Shown here piece after piece: positions 1,403 through 8,421 of a DNA stretch of 64,000 bases (positions are counted from its first letter, which is position 1; every line of letters begins with the position of its first letter). The notes under the pieces are model-generated. The model saw only the letters and a program-made list of their open reading frames with translations. It did not search any database and was not told where the DNA came from. The DNA is taken from assembly GCF_025869515.1 (NCBI RefSeq), contig NZ_JAOZVR010000012.1, positions 1 to 64,000 on the forward strand, in the 5' to 3' direction. The stretch is from Ferrovibrio sp. (GTDB lineage: Bacteria > Pseudomonadota > Alphaproteobacteria > Ferrovibrionales > Ferrovibrionaceae). A program made the position numbers and the translations under genes.

Positions 1403-1918
1403 TCAGGGTATATGCAGGTCGATCCTGTAGCGCTCGATCTGGCTGTCGTCGTCGCGCTCAACGCCGATCACCGTGACATCGTCGCGCGTGGTCAATGCCG
1501 GCAACTGCGCCATCAGATAGGCATTGGCATGGCTGGCACCGGAGGGGCCGTCAAAAGCGATGCCGATGGCCGTCATGTGGCAATCGAGGCAATAGCCGGC
1601 CTTCATATAGTCATGTGTCGAGGCCAGGTCGTGAAACAGGATGCCCGCATTCTGTTCGGTGGCAGCCTGACGAATCTGCGCCGTGGTCATGTCCTGGCCG
1701 TCGATGCGGAAGGGCCGGTGATAAGCTTGGAAGAAGGTCCAGGCCAGCAGCAGGGCGGCCTTGGTCTTGCCGCTACCGGCCGGGCCCGAGACATACAGGA
1801 ATTGCGGCGCGCCGAGGCGATGCTGCAGGGTCTGAACCTGCAGGGGCGTGAAACCGAAATCCGACAATGAATGAAAGGTGCGCTGCGACATCCGTAAATC
1901 CCAAACTGGGCCCTTCAT
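1403..1918 (-). CDS. orphan GspE/PilB-like P-loop protein, short and divergent
   Basis: A 171-residue protein resembling only the middle of a type II/IV secretion ATPase. LRMSQRTFHSLSDFGF matches the stretch before the GspE P-loop. Walker A follows (GPAGSGKTKAALLL, residues about 45-58). A segment IRQAATEQNAGILFHDLAS sits where GspE has its Walker B and GEIRD box, but the catalytic Glu is absent. The N-terminal domains and the C-terminal metal-binding domain of GspE are missing. The ATG at 1918 keeps the homologous LRMS segment but lacks a ribosome binding site; ATG 1891 has a weak GGGA. No pilus or secretion genes lie nearby. Function unknown; it may be an ATP-binding remnant adapted to another role. 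Confidence 0.6.
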   Translation of the reverse strand: MKGPVWDLRMSQRTFHSLSDFGFTPLQVQTLQHRLGAPQFLYVSGPAGSGKTKAALLLAWTFFQAYHRPFRIDGQDMTTAQIRQAATEQNAGILFHDLASTHDYMKAGYCLDCHMTAIGIAFDGPSGASHANAYLMAQLPALTTRDDVTVIGVERDDDSQIERYRIDLHIP

Positions 1919-3402: not shown

Positions 3403-4038
3403 TTATTTCGGCCGGAGCATCCGGAACATGGTTTCCGGCGTGGCCTCGAAGTAATCCGCCAGATAGCCCGAGCGCATGATTGGGCGCGCGGCGTCTGCGA
3501 CGAACAGGCCGTCCTTGATATAGGCCTTATTGATATGCACGCCGACCACCTGGCCCAGTGCCATCCAGGCCTGCAGCGGGCGGCCTTCCAGATCGTGCTG
3601 CTGGATCACTTGCAATAGCCTGCATTCCAGTGCGGTCGGGCTTTCCGCCACGCGGGGTACGGACACGTTGCGGCAGGCGGCCGGCGTCAGGCCGGCCAGA
3701 ACAAACTCATCCACATCGGTTTCCACTGTGGCTGAAGTCTTGTTCATCGCCTCGGCTAGCGGACGCGTCGCCAGGTTGGCGACGAATTCACCGGTTTCCT
3801 GGACGTTGCGGATACTATCCTTCCAGCCAGTGCTGCCGAAAGCGACAATCGGCGGCTTGTCGTGAAAGGCATTGAAGTAGCTGTAGGGTGCAAGATTGAC
3901 CCGACCCTTCGCATCGCGCGATGAAATCCAGCCGATCGGGCGCGGACCGACGATGGCCTTGAAAGGATCATGCGCCAGGCCATGACCCATGGCAGGGTCA
4001 TAAAAATGAATGGCATCGCTGGTACTGTCGGTGGACAT
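3403..4038 (-). CDS. flavin reductase-like (FMN-binding split barrel) protein
   Basis: A 211-residue protein of the DIM6/NTAB flavin-reductase family, which binds FMN in a split-barrel fold and typically supplies reduced flavin or acts as an oxidoreductase. Diagnostic segments are FKAIVGPRPIGWISSRDAKG (about 28-47), NLAPYSYFNAFHDKPPIVAFG, RNVQETGEFVANLATRPLAEAMN, and a C-terminal LGQVVGVHI strand. The ATG at 4038 is chosen because the first 33 residues of the longer frame are not family-like; GAG lies upstream. No monooxygenase partner is adjacent, so the substrate is unknown. The 151-bp gap to the plus-strand receiver gene serves as a divergent promoter region. Confidence 0.88.
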   Translation of the reverse strand: MSTDSTSDAIHFYDPAMGHGLAHDPFKAIVGPRPIGWISSRDAKGRVNLAPYSYFNAFHDKPPIVAFGSTGWKDSIRNVQETGEFVANLATRPLAEAMNKTSATVETDVDEFVLAGLTPAACRNVSVPRVAESPTALECRLLQVIQQHDLEGRPLQAWMALGQVVGVHINKAYIKDGLFVADAARPIMRSGYLADYFEATPETMFRMLRPK

Positions 4039-4189
4039 GCTCGTCTCATGCTGTTGTTGGCCATCGCGGGCGCGAATGATCGATGATAAAGTGGGTGAAA
4101 TAGCCGCCATCGTCCACCGCTGGATGTCGAAATCCAAGCCTTGCCGGCTAAGCCTTGCTCAACCGCCCCAACCATAATGCCCGAACCAT

Positions 4190-4714
4190 ATGTCGTTTGA
4201 CCTGACCCGACTGGATCTGCTGATCGTCGAGCCCGATTCGGATGTTGCTTCCACCTGGCGGCGGCTGCTGGCGACATTGCGCATCAAGCCGCCCAGCATC
4301 TTGCCCGGTGCGGCCCAGGCCTGGACGCTGCTGAAAGGCGCCCCGCAGGGGGCAGGCGTAGTTGGAGCAAAGGTGGATGTGATGATCTGCCGCTGGGAAT
4401 TACCGGACGATGACGGGCTCATGCTGATCGAGCGGCTGCGTCGCGATCCGGAGTCACCGGCCCCTTTCCTGCCGGCGATTGTGGTTACTGCGACCGTCAC
4501 GCGCGAGCGTGTGCGGCGGGCGCTGGATGCCGGCGTGCATGAAATCCTGATGCTGCCGCTGGTGCCGAAGGCCGTCGAAAGCCGGTTGCGCGAAGTGGTT
4601 GAACGACCGCGGAAATTCATCCGGGGCGGCGGCTATTTCGGCCCCGACCGACGGCGACAGGTGCGGGCCGATTATGCCGGCCCGTTCCGGCGCGCCGAGG
4701 ATCGCGCCAGATAG
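4190..4714 (+). CDS. receiver-domain protein lacking the phospho-acceptor Asp
   Basis: A 174-residue stand-alone CheY-like domain with the alphaproteobacterial C-terminal tail YFGPDRRR (149-156). The N-terminal acidic pair is partly kept (EPDSD, 14-18). The segment MICRWELPDDDG (65-76) aligns with the usual hhCDWxMPxxDG, so Arg68 (codon CGC) stands where the phosphorylated Asp should be. The conserved Lys before the K-P dipeptide is Leu122 (LMLPLV). It is therefore probably a pseudo-receiver that cannot be phosphorylated conventionally. It faces the HPt gene convergently with an 11-bp gap, suggesting a functional pair. The start lacks a clear Shine-Dalgarno. Confidence 0.82.
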   Translation: MSFDLTRLDLLIVEPDSDVASTWRRLLATLRIKPPSILPGAAQAWTLLKGAPQGAGVVGAKVDVMICRWELPDDDGLMLIERLRRDPESPAPFLPAIVVTATVTRERVRRALDAGVHEILMLPLVPKAVESRLREVVERPRKFIRGGGYFGPDRRRQVRADYAGPFRRAEDRAR

Positions 4715-4725
4715 AGAATCCGGTC

Positions 4726-5172
4726 CTAGGCGAAGCTTTTTTCGGCCACGGCCTTCAGGGCGTCGAGAATCTCCCGCCCCAGTTCTCCGGCGGGGCCCTG
4801 GATGCGGTTGTCGACCACGGTGCGCAGCGCCTCGACATGGGCATCGATCACGGCGCGGTCCACCTTCTGGCGCTCGATGGCGCGTTCGGTATACCGGCAG
4901 AGCAGTAGGCCGATATCGGTGATCAGGTGATAGCCAAAGGTGCTGCCCTGGCCCTTGATGTCATGGGCAACGCCATAGACCTCACGCAGGGCTGCGCCAT
5001 TGCTGCCGTCGGTGACGCCAGCAATGGCGGCATCCAGGCGCTTCAGATCATCGTTGACCCAGCCGATATACTTGTCCGACAGGCCCGCGACCGCGGCCTG
5101 GGCACTGGCAACCGCCGCACCGAATTCCTGGTCGGGGCGCGAGGGGGAAGGCTTGCCGCTGTCACTCGTCAT
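4726..5172 (-). CDS. HPt-domain histidine phosphotransfer protein
   Basis: A 148-residue helical protein with a histidine-phosphotransfer motif, VAHDIKGQGSTFG (68-80), in which His70 is the phosphorylatable residue and the following Lys/Gly/Ser match the HxxKGxS pattern. HPt proteins relay phosphate between receiver domains. The N-terminus (about 1-25) is polar and variable; the bundle covers about 35-140. It ends 12 bp from the receiver gene on the opposite strand. No hybrid kinase is in the window, so its donor is unknown. The intact His beside a receiver that has lost its Asp is the odd feature of the pair. Confidence 0.85.
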   Translation of the reverse strand: MTSDSGKPSPSRPDQEFGAAVASAQAAVAGLSDKYIGWVNDDLKRLDAAIAGVTDGSNGAALREVYGVAHDIKGQGSTFGYHLITDIGLLLCRYTERAIERQKVDRAVIDAHVEALRTVVDNRIQGPAGELGREILDALKAVAEKSFA

Positions 5173-5283
5173 GGGTTCGCCGGGGCACCAAGTTTAAGAA
5201 CGATTCTTGTTTGCCCGATATAAGGGGGGCGCCCGGCGGCCAAAGTCTAGGTTATCAACTGGTAACCTGTCCCTTCGAACGGG

Positions 5284-8200
5284 TTACTCGGCCGACTCGG
5301 CCTTGGCGGCTTCGACGTCCGGCCGTTTTTCCAGTTCGCTGAGCTTGCGGGCAATAAAGCCGGCCGGTTTGGTGAAGCGAGCGAGCAGCAGGTACAGCAC
5401 GGGCACCACGAAGAGGCTGAGCAGGGTGGCGAAGGTCATGCCGCCGACGATCACCCAGCCCAGCGCCGAGCGCGATTCGGCACCGGCACCATGGGCCACG
5501 GCCAGGGGCACCGCACCGAAGATGGTGGCGATGGTCGTCATCAGGATGGGGCGAAGGCGGACGATCGAGGAGTTGGTCACGGCCTCGGCAATGCTCTGAC
5601 CCTCATCCCGCAGCTGGTTGGCGAACTCGACGATCAGAATCGCGTTCTTGGCGATCAGTCCGATCAGCATGATGATGCCGATCTGGCTGTAGACATTGAG
5701 GCTTTGTCCCGCCAGCAACAGCGCGCCCAGGGCGCCGGTGACGGCCAGCGGCACCGAGAAGATGATGATGGTTGGATGGATCCAGCTCTCGAACTGGGCG
5801 GCCAGAACCAGAAACACGACGATCAGCGCCAGGGCAAAAGTCAGGAAAATCGCCGACGAGGAGTCCTTGAACTCGCGGCTCTGGCCGGCATAAGTGATGC
5901 GAGCCTCCGGTGGCAGGACTTCGGCCGCTATTGTGTCGAGATAGTCGAGCGCCTGCCCTATCGTGTAGCCTGGGGCCAGTGAAGCGGTAATCGTTACCGA
6001 ACGCAGGCGATCGGCGCGATTCAGCTCGCGCGCATTGGCGCCTTCCTTGAGCGTCACCAGGCTGGCGAGCGGCACAAGCTTTCCATTGGCGCCGCCGGCG
6101 CGGACGTAAATGTTGTTCAGGTCGCTGGGCGTGATGCGCTGTTCGGCCGGCGCCTGAACCAGAACCTTGTACTGCTTGCCTTCGCGCTGGAAGTTGGTGA
6201 CTTCACGCGAGCCCAGCATGGTCTCCAGCGTGCGGCCGATGGTCTCGACCGGCACGCCGAGATCGGCGGCGCGGTCGCGGTCGATCTCGACCTGAATTTC
6301 GGGCCGGCTCGGCTTGTAGCTCTTGTCGACATTGAGCAGGCCTGGATTCTGCAGGGCGCGCTCGAGCATGCGCTCGGCCCATTCATCGAGGACCGGATAG
6401 GTTGGCCCGCCGATCACGAACTGCACCGGCGCCTGCCCACCGGGCAGTCCCAGGCTGGGCGGGTTGATGGCGAAAGCGCGGACACCGGTGATCGCCAGCA
6501 GTTTGGGAAAGACCTCCTTCACCAGATCCTGCTGCTTGGTCTCACGATCGGACCAGTCTTTCAGTCGCACTACCATGAAGGCGGCATTGACCGGGGACGG
6601 GCGTCCGCCCCAGGCAGGTGCGATGAATGACTGCACCACGGTGGCATCGCCGCGTTCGACATAAGGCCGCAGCGCTTCCTCGACCTTGAGGATGTTGTTG
6701 CGGGTGTATTCGTAGCTGGAGCCTTCGGGTCCGGTGACCGAGACGAAGAAAACGCCGCGGTCCTCGGTCGGCGCGAATTCACGCGGCAGGGCCTGGAACA
6801 TCAGATAGGCCGCGACCGAAACGACGCCGCCGATGGCAAGAACCAGCACGGGTGCACCGAGCGCGCGGCGCAACAACCAGCCATAGCTGTTCGACATGCC
6901 GACGAAGAATTTCTCGGTCACATGATAGAACCGGCCTTCATCCTTGGCGTCATGCAGCAGTTTCGAACACATCATCGGCGTCAGCGTCAGGGCCACGAAG
7001 CCGGAGAAGAGCACGGAAGCCGCCACCGAGATGCCGAATTCGCGAAACAGGCGGCCGGTGTTGCCTTCCATCAGCGAGATCGGCACGAAGACGGCGATCA
7101 ACACCACGGTGGTGGCAATGACGGCAAAACCGATCTGGCGGGCACCGCGCAAGCTCGCCAGCAGCGGCGGTTCGCCCAGTTCGATACGGCGGTGGATGTT
7201 TTCCAGCACCACGATGGCATCATCCACCACCAAGCCGATGGCGAGTACCAAGGCTAGCAGAGTCAGCACGTTGATCGAGTAACCCAACGCGCCAATGATA
7301 ATGAATGATCCGATCACCGAGACCGGAATGGCGATGGCAGGGATCAGGGTGGCGCGCCATGAGCGCAGGAACAGGAAAATGACGCCGATCACCAGGCCGA
7401 GCGCGACCATCAGCGCGTGAAACACCTCGTAGATCGACTGGCTGATGAATTTCGACTGATCGTAGCTGACTTCCATGCGCACGCCGAGCGGCAGGCTGCC
7501 CTGCAGGCGCTCGACGGCCTTGGTCACACCGGTGGAAATCTCCATGGCATTGGCCTTGGATTGTCGGATGATACCCAGGCCGATGGCCGTAGTGCCGTTG
7601 ACGCGTTGCTCGGTGCGGTCGTCTTCGGCGCCGAGTTCAACCTTGGCGACCTCGCCGAGCCGCAGAAGATAGCCATCCTGTTCGCGCAGCACGATGCTGC
7701 GGAATTGTTGTGCGGTGCGCAGGCCGGATTCGGCCCGCACGGTGAACTCGCGCATGCTGCTCTCGACGCGACCGGATGGCAGCTCGACATTCTGCCGCCG
7801 GATCGCATCCTCTACATCCTGGACGGTGACGTTGCGTGCGGCCATGGCCATGCGGTCGAGATAGACGCGCATGGAATAGCGCCGCGCACCGTAAATATTT
7901 ACCGAAGCCACGCCATCGATGATGGAGAGCTGATCGAGCAGATACCGGTCGGCGTAATCGGTCAGTTCCAGCAGGTTCAGCCGGTCGCTGAACATCGAAA
8001 TGTAGATGATCGGGCGGGCGTCGGCTTCGGTCTTGGCAATCACCGGCTGGTCGGCTTCGGCCGGCAGTTTGGTGAGTACGCGCGATACCTTGTCGCGCAC
8101 GTCGTTAGCGGCAGAATCGACATCGCGGCTGAGATTGAACTCGATACTGATCGAGCTGGATTCCTCGCGACTGGCCGATGTGATCGAGCGGATGCCTTCG

Positions 8201-8421
8201 ATGCCAGCGACCGAATCCTCGATGATCTGGGTGATCTTGCTTTCGATGATTTCAGCCGAGGCGCCGCGGTAGATGGTAGTGACGCTGACCGCCGGCGGAT
8301 CGATATCGGGATACTCGCGCACCGCCATGCCGCGTAGCGCGAACAGGCCGAAAATGATCAGGATCAGCGACATTACGGTCGCGAAAACCGGGCGCTTGAT
8401 CGAAATATCCGAGAGAACCAT
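5284..8421 (-). CDS. RND efflux permease (AcrB/MexB-MdtB superfamily)
   Basis: A 1045-residue inner-membrane proton/drug antiporter of the HAE1 type, extruding compounds from the periplasm through a tripartite pump. The start MVLSDISIKRPVFATVMSLI is typical. It has the repeated six-helix halves with TM1 at about 10-30 and helices 2-6 from about 335; the proton-relay Asp pair is in LAIGLVVDDAIVVLENIHRR. The second half repeats with IMLIGLIAKNAILIVEFANQ. Length and order match the family. The adaptor gene lies 23 bp upstream in the same operon; no outer-membrane channel gene is present, so the pump must use one encoded elsewhere. Substrate cannot be read from sequence. Confidence 0.95.
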   Translation of the reverse strand: MVLSDISIKRPVFATVMSLILIIFGLFALRGMAVREYPDIDPPAVSVTTIYRGASAEIIESKITQIIEDSVAGIEGIRSITSASREESSSISIEFNLSRDVDSAANDVRDKVSRVLTKLPAEADQPVIAKTEADARPIIYISMFSDRLNLLELTDYADRYLLDQLSIIDGVASVNIYGARRYSMRVYLDRMAMAARNVTVQDVEDAIRRQNVELPSGRVESSMREFTVRAESGLRTAQQFRSIVLREQDGYLLRLGEVAKVELGAEDDRTEQRVNGTTAIGLGIIRQSKANAMEISTGVTKAVERLQGSLPLGVRMEVSYDQSKFISQSIYEVFHALMVALGLVIGVIFLFLRSWRATLIPAIAIPVSVIGSFIIIGALGYSINVLTLLALVLAIGLVVDDAIVVLENIHRRIELGEPPLLASLRGARQIGFAVIATTVVLIAVFVPISLMEGNTGRLFREFGISVAASVLFSGFVALTLTPMMCSKLLHDAKDEGRFYHVTEKFFVGMSNSYGWLLRRALGAPVLVLAIGGVVSVAAYLMFQALPREFAPTEDRGVFFVSVTGPEGSSYEYTRNNILKVEEALRPYVERGDATVVQSFIAPAWGGRPSPVNAAFMVVRLKDWSDRETKQQDLVKEVFPKLLAITGVRAFAINPPSLGLPGGQAPVQFVIGGPTYPVLDEWAERMLERALQNPGLLNVDKSYKPSRPEIQVEIDRDRAADLGVPVETIGRTLETMLGSREVTNFQREGKQYKVLVQAPAEQRITPSDLNNIYVRAGGANGKLVPLASLVTLKEGANARELNRADRLRSVTITASLAPGYTIGQALDYLDTIAAEVLPPEARITYAGQSREFKDSSSAIFLTFALALIVVFLVLAAQFESWIHPTIIIFSVPLAVTGALGALLLAGQSLNVYSQIGIIMLIGLIAKNAILIVEFANQLRDEGQSIAEAVTNSSIVRLRPILMTTIATIFGAVPLAVAHGAGAESRSALGWVIVGGMTFATLLSLFVVPVLYLLLARFTKPAGFIARKLSELEKRPDVEAAKAESAE

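Follow-up and report, generated by a model that had tools for sequence, protein, structure and literature searches.

The 64,000-nucleotide stretch of Ferrovibrio sp. DNA analysed here (positions 1 to 64,000 of contig NZ_JAOZVR010000012.1, assembly GCF_025869515.1; hereafter the window) encodes, on converging strands, a receiver protein that has lost its phospho-acceptor Asp and a histidine phosphotransfer (HPt) protein that has kept its phospho-accepting His. We propose, with a probability of roughly 0.6, that this receiver is a phosphate-blind derivative of the Cle proteins driven by cyclic di-GMP (c-di-GMP), and that the adjoining HPt protein serves receivers encoded elsewhere in the genome. 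The two genes and their key positions are:

4190..4714, forward strand: receiver without the phospho-Asp and with an Arg-rich tail, 174 amino acids plus stop; Pfam Response_reg at 2e-9 (above the cut-off), CheY fold with Z 19.9.
4391..4393, forward strand: codon of Arg68, which occupies the phospho-Asp position and, in the structural model, closes beta-3.
4523..4525, forward strand: codon of Leu112, in the place of the alpha-4 Arg of Cle proteins; Arg in 139/152 other tail-bearing receivers.
4553..4555, forward strand: codon of Leu122, at the position of the conserved Lys; Leu in five and Pro in four of nine copies.
4604..4702, forward strand: Arg-rich tail (residues 139-171) of the c-di-GMP-binding type, matching PDB entry 6sft_A.
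4634..4654, forward strand: first tail repeat, YFGPDRR, fitting the [YF]xGP[DE][RK]R motif of Nesper et al. 2017.
4673..4693, forward strand: second tail repeat, YAGPFRR, fitting the looser [YF]xGPx[RK]R of the same paper (PMC5677366).
4726..5172, reverse strand: HPt protein, 148 amino acids; Pfam Hpt at 2.6e-4 and 21.6 bits, CheA P1-like fold and a family profile match to CheA P1.
4963..4965, reverse strand: codon of His70, the phospho-site, in the HxxKG context AHDIKGQG; His in all 10 Ferrovibrio genomes.

The AlphaFold model of the receiver (pLDDT 88.7) superimposes on CheY, with a root-mean-square deviation (rmsd) of 1.5 over 126 aligned residues. In this model R68 closes beta-3 (64-68) and L122 follows beta-5 (118-121), and these places identify them as the phospho-Asp and Lys positions; the residues checked in the receiver are E14-P15, R68, T100 and L122. 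The protein accordingly has a receiver fold without a phospho-Asp and is a pseudo-receiver. An NCBIfam scan returned for the receiver weak general receiver matches, all below their cut-offs, and for the HPt protein no match. A preliminary description of this DNA had reported Arg68 instead of the expected Asp and Leu122 instead of the conserved Lys in the receiver (the protein beginning MICRWELP) and an intact His70 in the HPt protein, all of which our reading of the residues and their structural positions bears out. It had also ruled out normal phosphorylation, and we concur to the extent that the receiver lacks the residues for accepting a phosphoryl group at the usual site, a state that is fixed in the genus.

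The preliminary description had missed the C-terminal tail of the receiver protein. When residues 138-174 were compared with 177,635 PDB sequences, the sole match up to an E-value of 10 was 6sft_A, a peptide of Caulobacter CleD (E 3.2e-6). Nesper et al. 2017 (PMC5677366) report that this region of the Cle proteins binds c-di-GMP and contains a [Y/F]xGP[D/E][R/K]R motif in tandem, that the tail is required while CleA D67A and CleD E70A still work, phosphorylation being dispensable for CleA and CleD, and that these proteins bind FliM. The tandem pattern is present in all nine Arg-type copies of the receiver, the strict motif with [DE] being found only in the first repeat of the window copy, and R154-R155 lie at R68+86 and +87, where CleA has RR153 at D67+86. 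The tail is also the most conserved part of the protein: among six Ferrovibrio copies, 24-29 of the 30 residues at 139-168 are identical to the window, compared with 103/138 down to 57/129 in the receiver part. The same paper describes an Arg in alpha-4 (CleA R111, CleD R113) that is needed for the localisation of both proteins and, strictly for CleD and partly for CleA, for function, the CleD R113A substitution raising the Kd only threefold. We counted its place from the published positions (CleA D67+44 = R111; here R68+44 = L112), and since it is occupied by Leu, the receiver is, as judged from its sequence, Cle-derived but no full Cle member. In the genome of the window, 12 matches to GGDEF and a single FliM were counted.

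Ten Ferrovibrio genomes, including that of the window itself (G000), were compared. Nine carry the receiver, in each case adjacent to the HPt gene, and all nine have Arg at the phospho-Asp site, encoded by CGC in seven and CGT in two. Across the nine copies 39 of 138 receiver residues are invariant, R68 and W69 among them. In 21 pairs drawn from seven copies, the ratio of nonsynonymous to synonymous substitution rates (dN/dS) is 0.06-0.21 in the 8 closer pairs, which points to purifying selection there, and 0.29-0.62 in the other 13. We therefore reject a strain-specific mutation or a sequencing error, given Arg in 9/9 copies with two codons and the low dN/dS of the closer pairs. The remaining genome, G011, shows the order RND-HPt-hemA without a receiver, its HPt protein retaining His at the same place. 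The HPt protein with its His thus persists there independently of the receiver, which weakens the idea that it is kept only for its neighbour.

Beyond the genus, we read the locus in six genomes (G002, G003, G004, G014, G015 and G016), G001 and G017 having been left out, and found an Asp-bearing counterpart at the same place in two of them, both from sister genera. In G002 the order is adaptor-RND-receiver A-HPt-receiver B-hemA, and receiver B, which is convergent with the HPt gene as in the window, retains Asp, Lys and the alpha-4 Arg, its N-terminus looking disturbed; G014 has an Asp-bearing receiver next to hemA, with the HPt gene lying about 32 kb off on that contig and adjoining RND. In G003 and G004 an Asp-bearing receiver occurs, but on the opposite flank of the HPt gene, and G015 and G016 have no counterpart. 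As none of the nine Ferrovibrio receivers has Asp, but the same-place receivers of G002 and G014 do, the loss of the Asp probably predates the diversification of the genus and is not peculiar to a single strain. The alignment of orthologues that had been proposed as a check on the preliminary description is thus two-sided, with no Asp within Ferrovibrio and Asp in the same-place receivers of two sister genera. In our receiver trees the Arg type arose once, whereas the Glu types form two groups (with one origin possible in the larger tree) and the Asn types two groups in the larger tree. A tree holding the Arg clade together with the G002 and G014 receivers is 41 log units better than a free quick search and has a p-AU of 0.92.

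For the HPt protein, the Pfam score lies below the curated cut-off of 24.6 bits, which is a statistical mark and no biological criterion, and Hpt is detected, at E-values up to 1, in 39 of the 43 relatives aligned. The AlphaFold model (pLDDT 89.9) consists of a helical bundle, and its closest structural match is the HPt domain of CheA P1 (Z 14.8, rmsd 2.9, 121 aligned), where designed helical bundles score up to 14.2 in the same comparison. Because such designed bundles also rank high, the match of the family sequence profile to CheA P1 (E 3.5e-10) is better evidence for an HPt protein than the fold. A helical bundle with an HxxKG phospho-His motif (here HDIKG) is what defines such a protein, and 4726..5172 has both. 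The orthologue in G007 (L016, L045) carries a TGA codon in frame ahead of the His, which is either decay or an assembly error, the near-identical copy in G009 being open.

We then asked which HPt copies keep the His in the subclade of the window (G000, G008, G010, G012 and G013 (single-contig)), where every HPt match was read. CheA aside, the only His-bearing stand-alone HPt protein is the copy at this locus (1/7 in G000, 1/7 in G008, 1/6 in G010, 1/6 in G012 and 1/7 in G013), the others having F, W, L or M in place of the His. The P1 domain of CheA also fits the HPt profile and keeps its His (L067 and L086 by Pfam, with a similar stretch in L093). The Asp-bearing tail receivers of the subclade stand beside His-less HPt proteins or none. 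Outside it, G005, G006, G007, G009 and G011, in which the HPt matches were partly read, each have at least one further intact copy. As a separate observation, Glu-type tail receivers (EWHMDG) in L067 (G000) and L086 (G013) are separated by about 2.5-2.7 kb from an HPt-like protein in which Trp replaces the His, near a CheA gene (L067:6731-9025).

The pairing of a Cle-type receiver with an HPt protein extends well beyond Ferrovibrio. We scanned 206 loci (36 from the receiver searches, 30 from the HPt search, 60 further stretches of genomes of the same family and 80 from named genomes), taking open reading frames (ORFs) from stop to stop and using receiver and HPt profiles built from this family itself; many of the genomes are metagenome assemblies, and a few named loci (such as L127, L141, L159 and L202) seem to be repeats of the same places, for which identical receivers were counted once. 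Among 161 distinct tail receivers, an HPt-like ORF lies no more than 300 bases away in 99 cases; the other 62 comprise 53 of Asp type and nine of Glu type, two of them at a sequence end and two being themselves fusions. In the 80 named loci, which are best matches to the query and no random sample, each of the 55 HPt-like ORFs is either no more than 300 bases from a tail receiver or part of the receiver's own ORF, and of the 83 distinct receivers that first appeared in this set, 51 are accompanied by such an ORF. The HPt gene is usually downstream on the same strand, lying on the opposite strand in the Arg clade and at receiver B of G002; two pairs score it as upstream owing to a long open frame. 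No HPt neighbour was found at eight receivers (L148, L178, L180, L189, L195, L196, L200, L201; L196 is cut off), whose loci are titled Caulobacter, Caulobacteraceae, Caulobacterales, Brevundimonas or Phenylobacterium, and this fits the silence on HPt of the Cle paper (PMC5677366). In three distinct cases receiver and HPt domain are fused in one ORF, always with both Asp and His:

L062:619-1536: 306 amino acids stop to stop, with the tandem tail; G009, the same place as part of L104.
L204:4914-6056: 381 amino acids stop to stop, with clearly only the first tail repeat; a named alphaproteobacterium.
L220:1558-2490: 311 amino acids stop to stop, with no tail repeat; G009.

A search of open PMC papers found no description of a Cle-type receiver-HPt pairing and nothing relevant on a PDRRR motif. 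Two further observations concern the named loci. A clade of Asp-bearing tail receivers in L128-L206 (e.g., L135, L151, L163, L171), several of them titled Micavibrio, has HPt-like neighbours in which Met, Ala, Leu or Ile replaces the His (mostly QLKANGG). L194 carries an alphaproteobacterial-type tail receiver in a record titled Mesoflavibacter, which we take to be a Bacteroidota name, and the title is probably wrong.

The 99 pairs show that the two genes can stay together after the loss of either catalytic residue. They divide into 41 with Asp and His, 22 with Asp and no His, 22 with Glu and no His, five with Asn and His and nine with Arg and His; the His is thus lost in pairs that keep the Asp and kept in pairs without it. 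A general coupling between the loss of Asp and that of His, striking as it looks in the raw table, we reject as a demonstrated result: the number of independent pairs is one to three, and a sign test on them gives p 1. The Glu-type receivers with an HPt neighbour, which is His-less in 22/22, form one clade, the Asn- and Arg-type pairs keep the HPt His in 14/14, and 22 of the Asp-type pairs have lost it. Altogether 44 of the 99 HPt neighbours lack the His, a count in which many rows are close relatives and for which the tree needs only three changes; set against the 0.9% of Hpt domains without His reported by Bourret et al. 2025 (PMC12632262), it makes this HPt family seem unusually prone to His loss.

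The residues, their fixation, the tail match, the synteny and the purifying selection are direct observations, and several explanations can be built on them. The preliminary description had suggested that the two proteins could bind each other in a non-phosphorylated state, the Asp-less receiver being a decoy or scaffold for the adjoining HPt protein, which on this model it would control. One could cite in its favour the unbroken adjacency of the two genes wherever the receiver occurs, the fusions in relatives, which imply that such domains can work together, and Osp, a single-domain receiver-like protein of Rhodobacter sphaeroides that reportedly inhibits the kinase CckA by binding. However, the genes are convergent, so that an operon of receiver and HPt is rejected, G011 keeps the HPt protein without the receiver, all three fusions favour the phosphorylatable form, and the model overlooks the c-di-GMP-binding-type tail, the best-conserved part of a protein whose receiver body diverges much faster; as stated it is not supported and we deem it unlikely. 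The same disparity in conservation, the absence of the receiver from G011 and the long stem leading to the Arg clade might instead suggest a decaying receiver domain that merely carries the tail, the protein buffering c-di-GMP and lacking a partner of its own. The dN/dS of the 13 more divergent pairs leaves room for such relaxed constraint, but the purifying selection in the closer pairs, the invariant residues and the confident CheY-fold model make it distinctly unlikely. Continued control of the flagellar switch by the Asp-less receiver, in the manner of a Cle protein, to which FliM binding by those proteins and the one FliM of the window genome might point, is highly improbable given the loss of the alpha-4 Arg that localises CleA and CleD to the pole and the lack of a motility gene among the neighbours identified.

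The explanation we prefer, a Cle-derived receiver driven by c-di-GMP beside an HPt protein with partners elsewhere, would start from an ancestral module in which an Asp-bearing receiver stood beside the HPt gene. The Ferrovibrio line would then have lost Asp, Lys and the alpha-4 Arg of Cle proteins and kept the tail; because these three residues are gone while the tail is retained, c-di-GMP bound to the tail is the likely input of the receiver. The HPt protein would stay a working phosphotransfer protein and, since the only His-bearing HPt of the subclade adjoins a receiver unable to use phosphate, would pass its phosphate to Asp-bearing receivers encoded elsewhere and not to its neighbour. 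Several points weigh against this proposal. The second tail repeat has Phe in the fifth place, where the motif calls for Asp or Glu, and all nine Ferrovibrio copies have Leu in the place of the alpha-4 Arg, contrary to what defines a Cle protein. In a careful tree of 52 rows the Arg clade sits by itself on a long stem, apart from the Asp-bearing receivers, and as the constrained tree is only unrejected and the careful one lacks the grouping, synteny is the basis for regarding the Asp-bearing receivers of G002 and G014 as orthologues. CheA, with its own His, could also feed other receivers. Finally, c-di-GMP binding and phosphotransfer, together with the partners of the HPt protein and the output of the receiver, are here predictions from sequence. 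A long shot that would join the two genes functionally has c-di-GMP gating a shared phosphorelay, in which the tail would read c-di-GMP and the receiver would dock on the sole active HPt of the family, opening or closing the flow of phosphate to Cle-type receivers with Asp elsewhere. If so, the catalytic roles would be split among paralogues, one module providing the His and others the Asp, with the tail linking them to a second messenger.

The surroundings of the pair add the following feature:

5284..8421, reverse strand: RND efflux permease gene (Pfam ACR_tran, 1043 bits), upstream of the HPt gene on the same strand.

The HPt gene follows this permease by 111 bases on the same strand (window 4726-8421), RND and HPt genes also lie close together in G011, G014, G015 and G016 and, with a receiver between them, in G002, and HPt and efflux may be co-expressed. 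The efflux genes are an RND permease and an adaptor, and hemA is a 5-aminolevulinate synthase gene (TIGR01821, 662 bits). Near hemA lies a small ATPase-like ORF (window 1403-1918) with weak AAA and secretion-ATPase Pfam hits, relatives of which occupy the same place in other Ferrovibrio genomes. The stop codons of the receiver and HPt genes are separated by 11 bases; no sigma-70 or terminator-like sites were found in 4000-5500, a result that says little.

Although pseudo-receivers are common, Bourret et al. 2025 (PMC12632262) call it a mystery what switches them on and off, and the window receiver is a pseudo-receiver with a ready and testable candidate input, c-di-GMP. The pairing of Cle-type receivers with divergent HPt proteins in many Alphaproteobacteria, sometimes as fusions, suggests for many such receivers a present or past input from a phosphorelay in addition to c-di-GMP, in contrast to the Caulobacter work (PMC5677366). 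With six or seven HPt proteins per genome, one of them with His, the window subclade offers a natural test case for the loss and reassignment of catalytic residues in phosphorelays.

The system finds partial parallels in four known groups of proteins. Like the aspartate-less receivers ChxR, RitR, FrzS and HP1043, the window receiver has a CheY fold without the phospho-Asp. Of such receivers 65% keep the first acidic residue, 29% have an acidic residue at the second place and 70% a basic one at the Lys place (Maule et al. 2015, PMC4395418); the window receiver keeps the first (Glu14; Asp in the other subclade), has lost the second and shows Leu or Pro at the Lys place. Its Arg is unusual, since Arg, Lys and His together make up only 4% of the Asp replacements in that survey, and it bears a c-di-GMP-type tail and no DNA-binding output. 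Osp, the model for the decoy idea, is likewise single-domain and receiver-like and is described as acting without phosphate, but it keeps its Asp (D51) and targets a kinase, and its accessible text mentions no Arg-rich tail. The HPt protein shares the HxxKG motif and helical bundle of stand-alone HPt proteins and CheA P1, differing in its score below the Pfam cut-off and in its family being paired with Cle-type receivers. The fourth parallel is with the Caulobacter Cle proteins, which also consist of a single receiver with a tandem Arg-rich tail, of the kind seen in the CleD peptide 6sft, and in which CleD, by its allele name E70A, seems to have Glu where the Asp would be. The window receiver departs from them in having Arg, and not Asp or Glu, at that site, in the loss of the Lys and the alpha-4 Arg, and in adjoining an HPt gene, a word absent from the main text of the Cle paper (PMC5677366).
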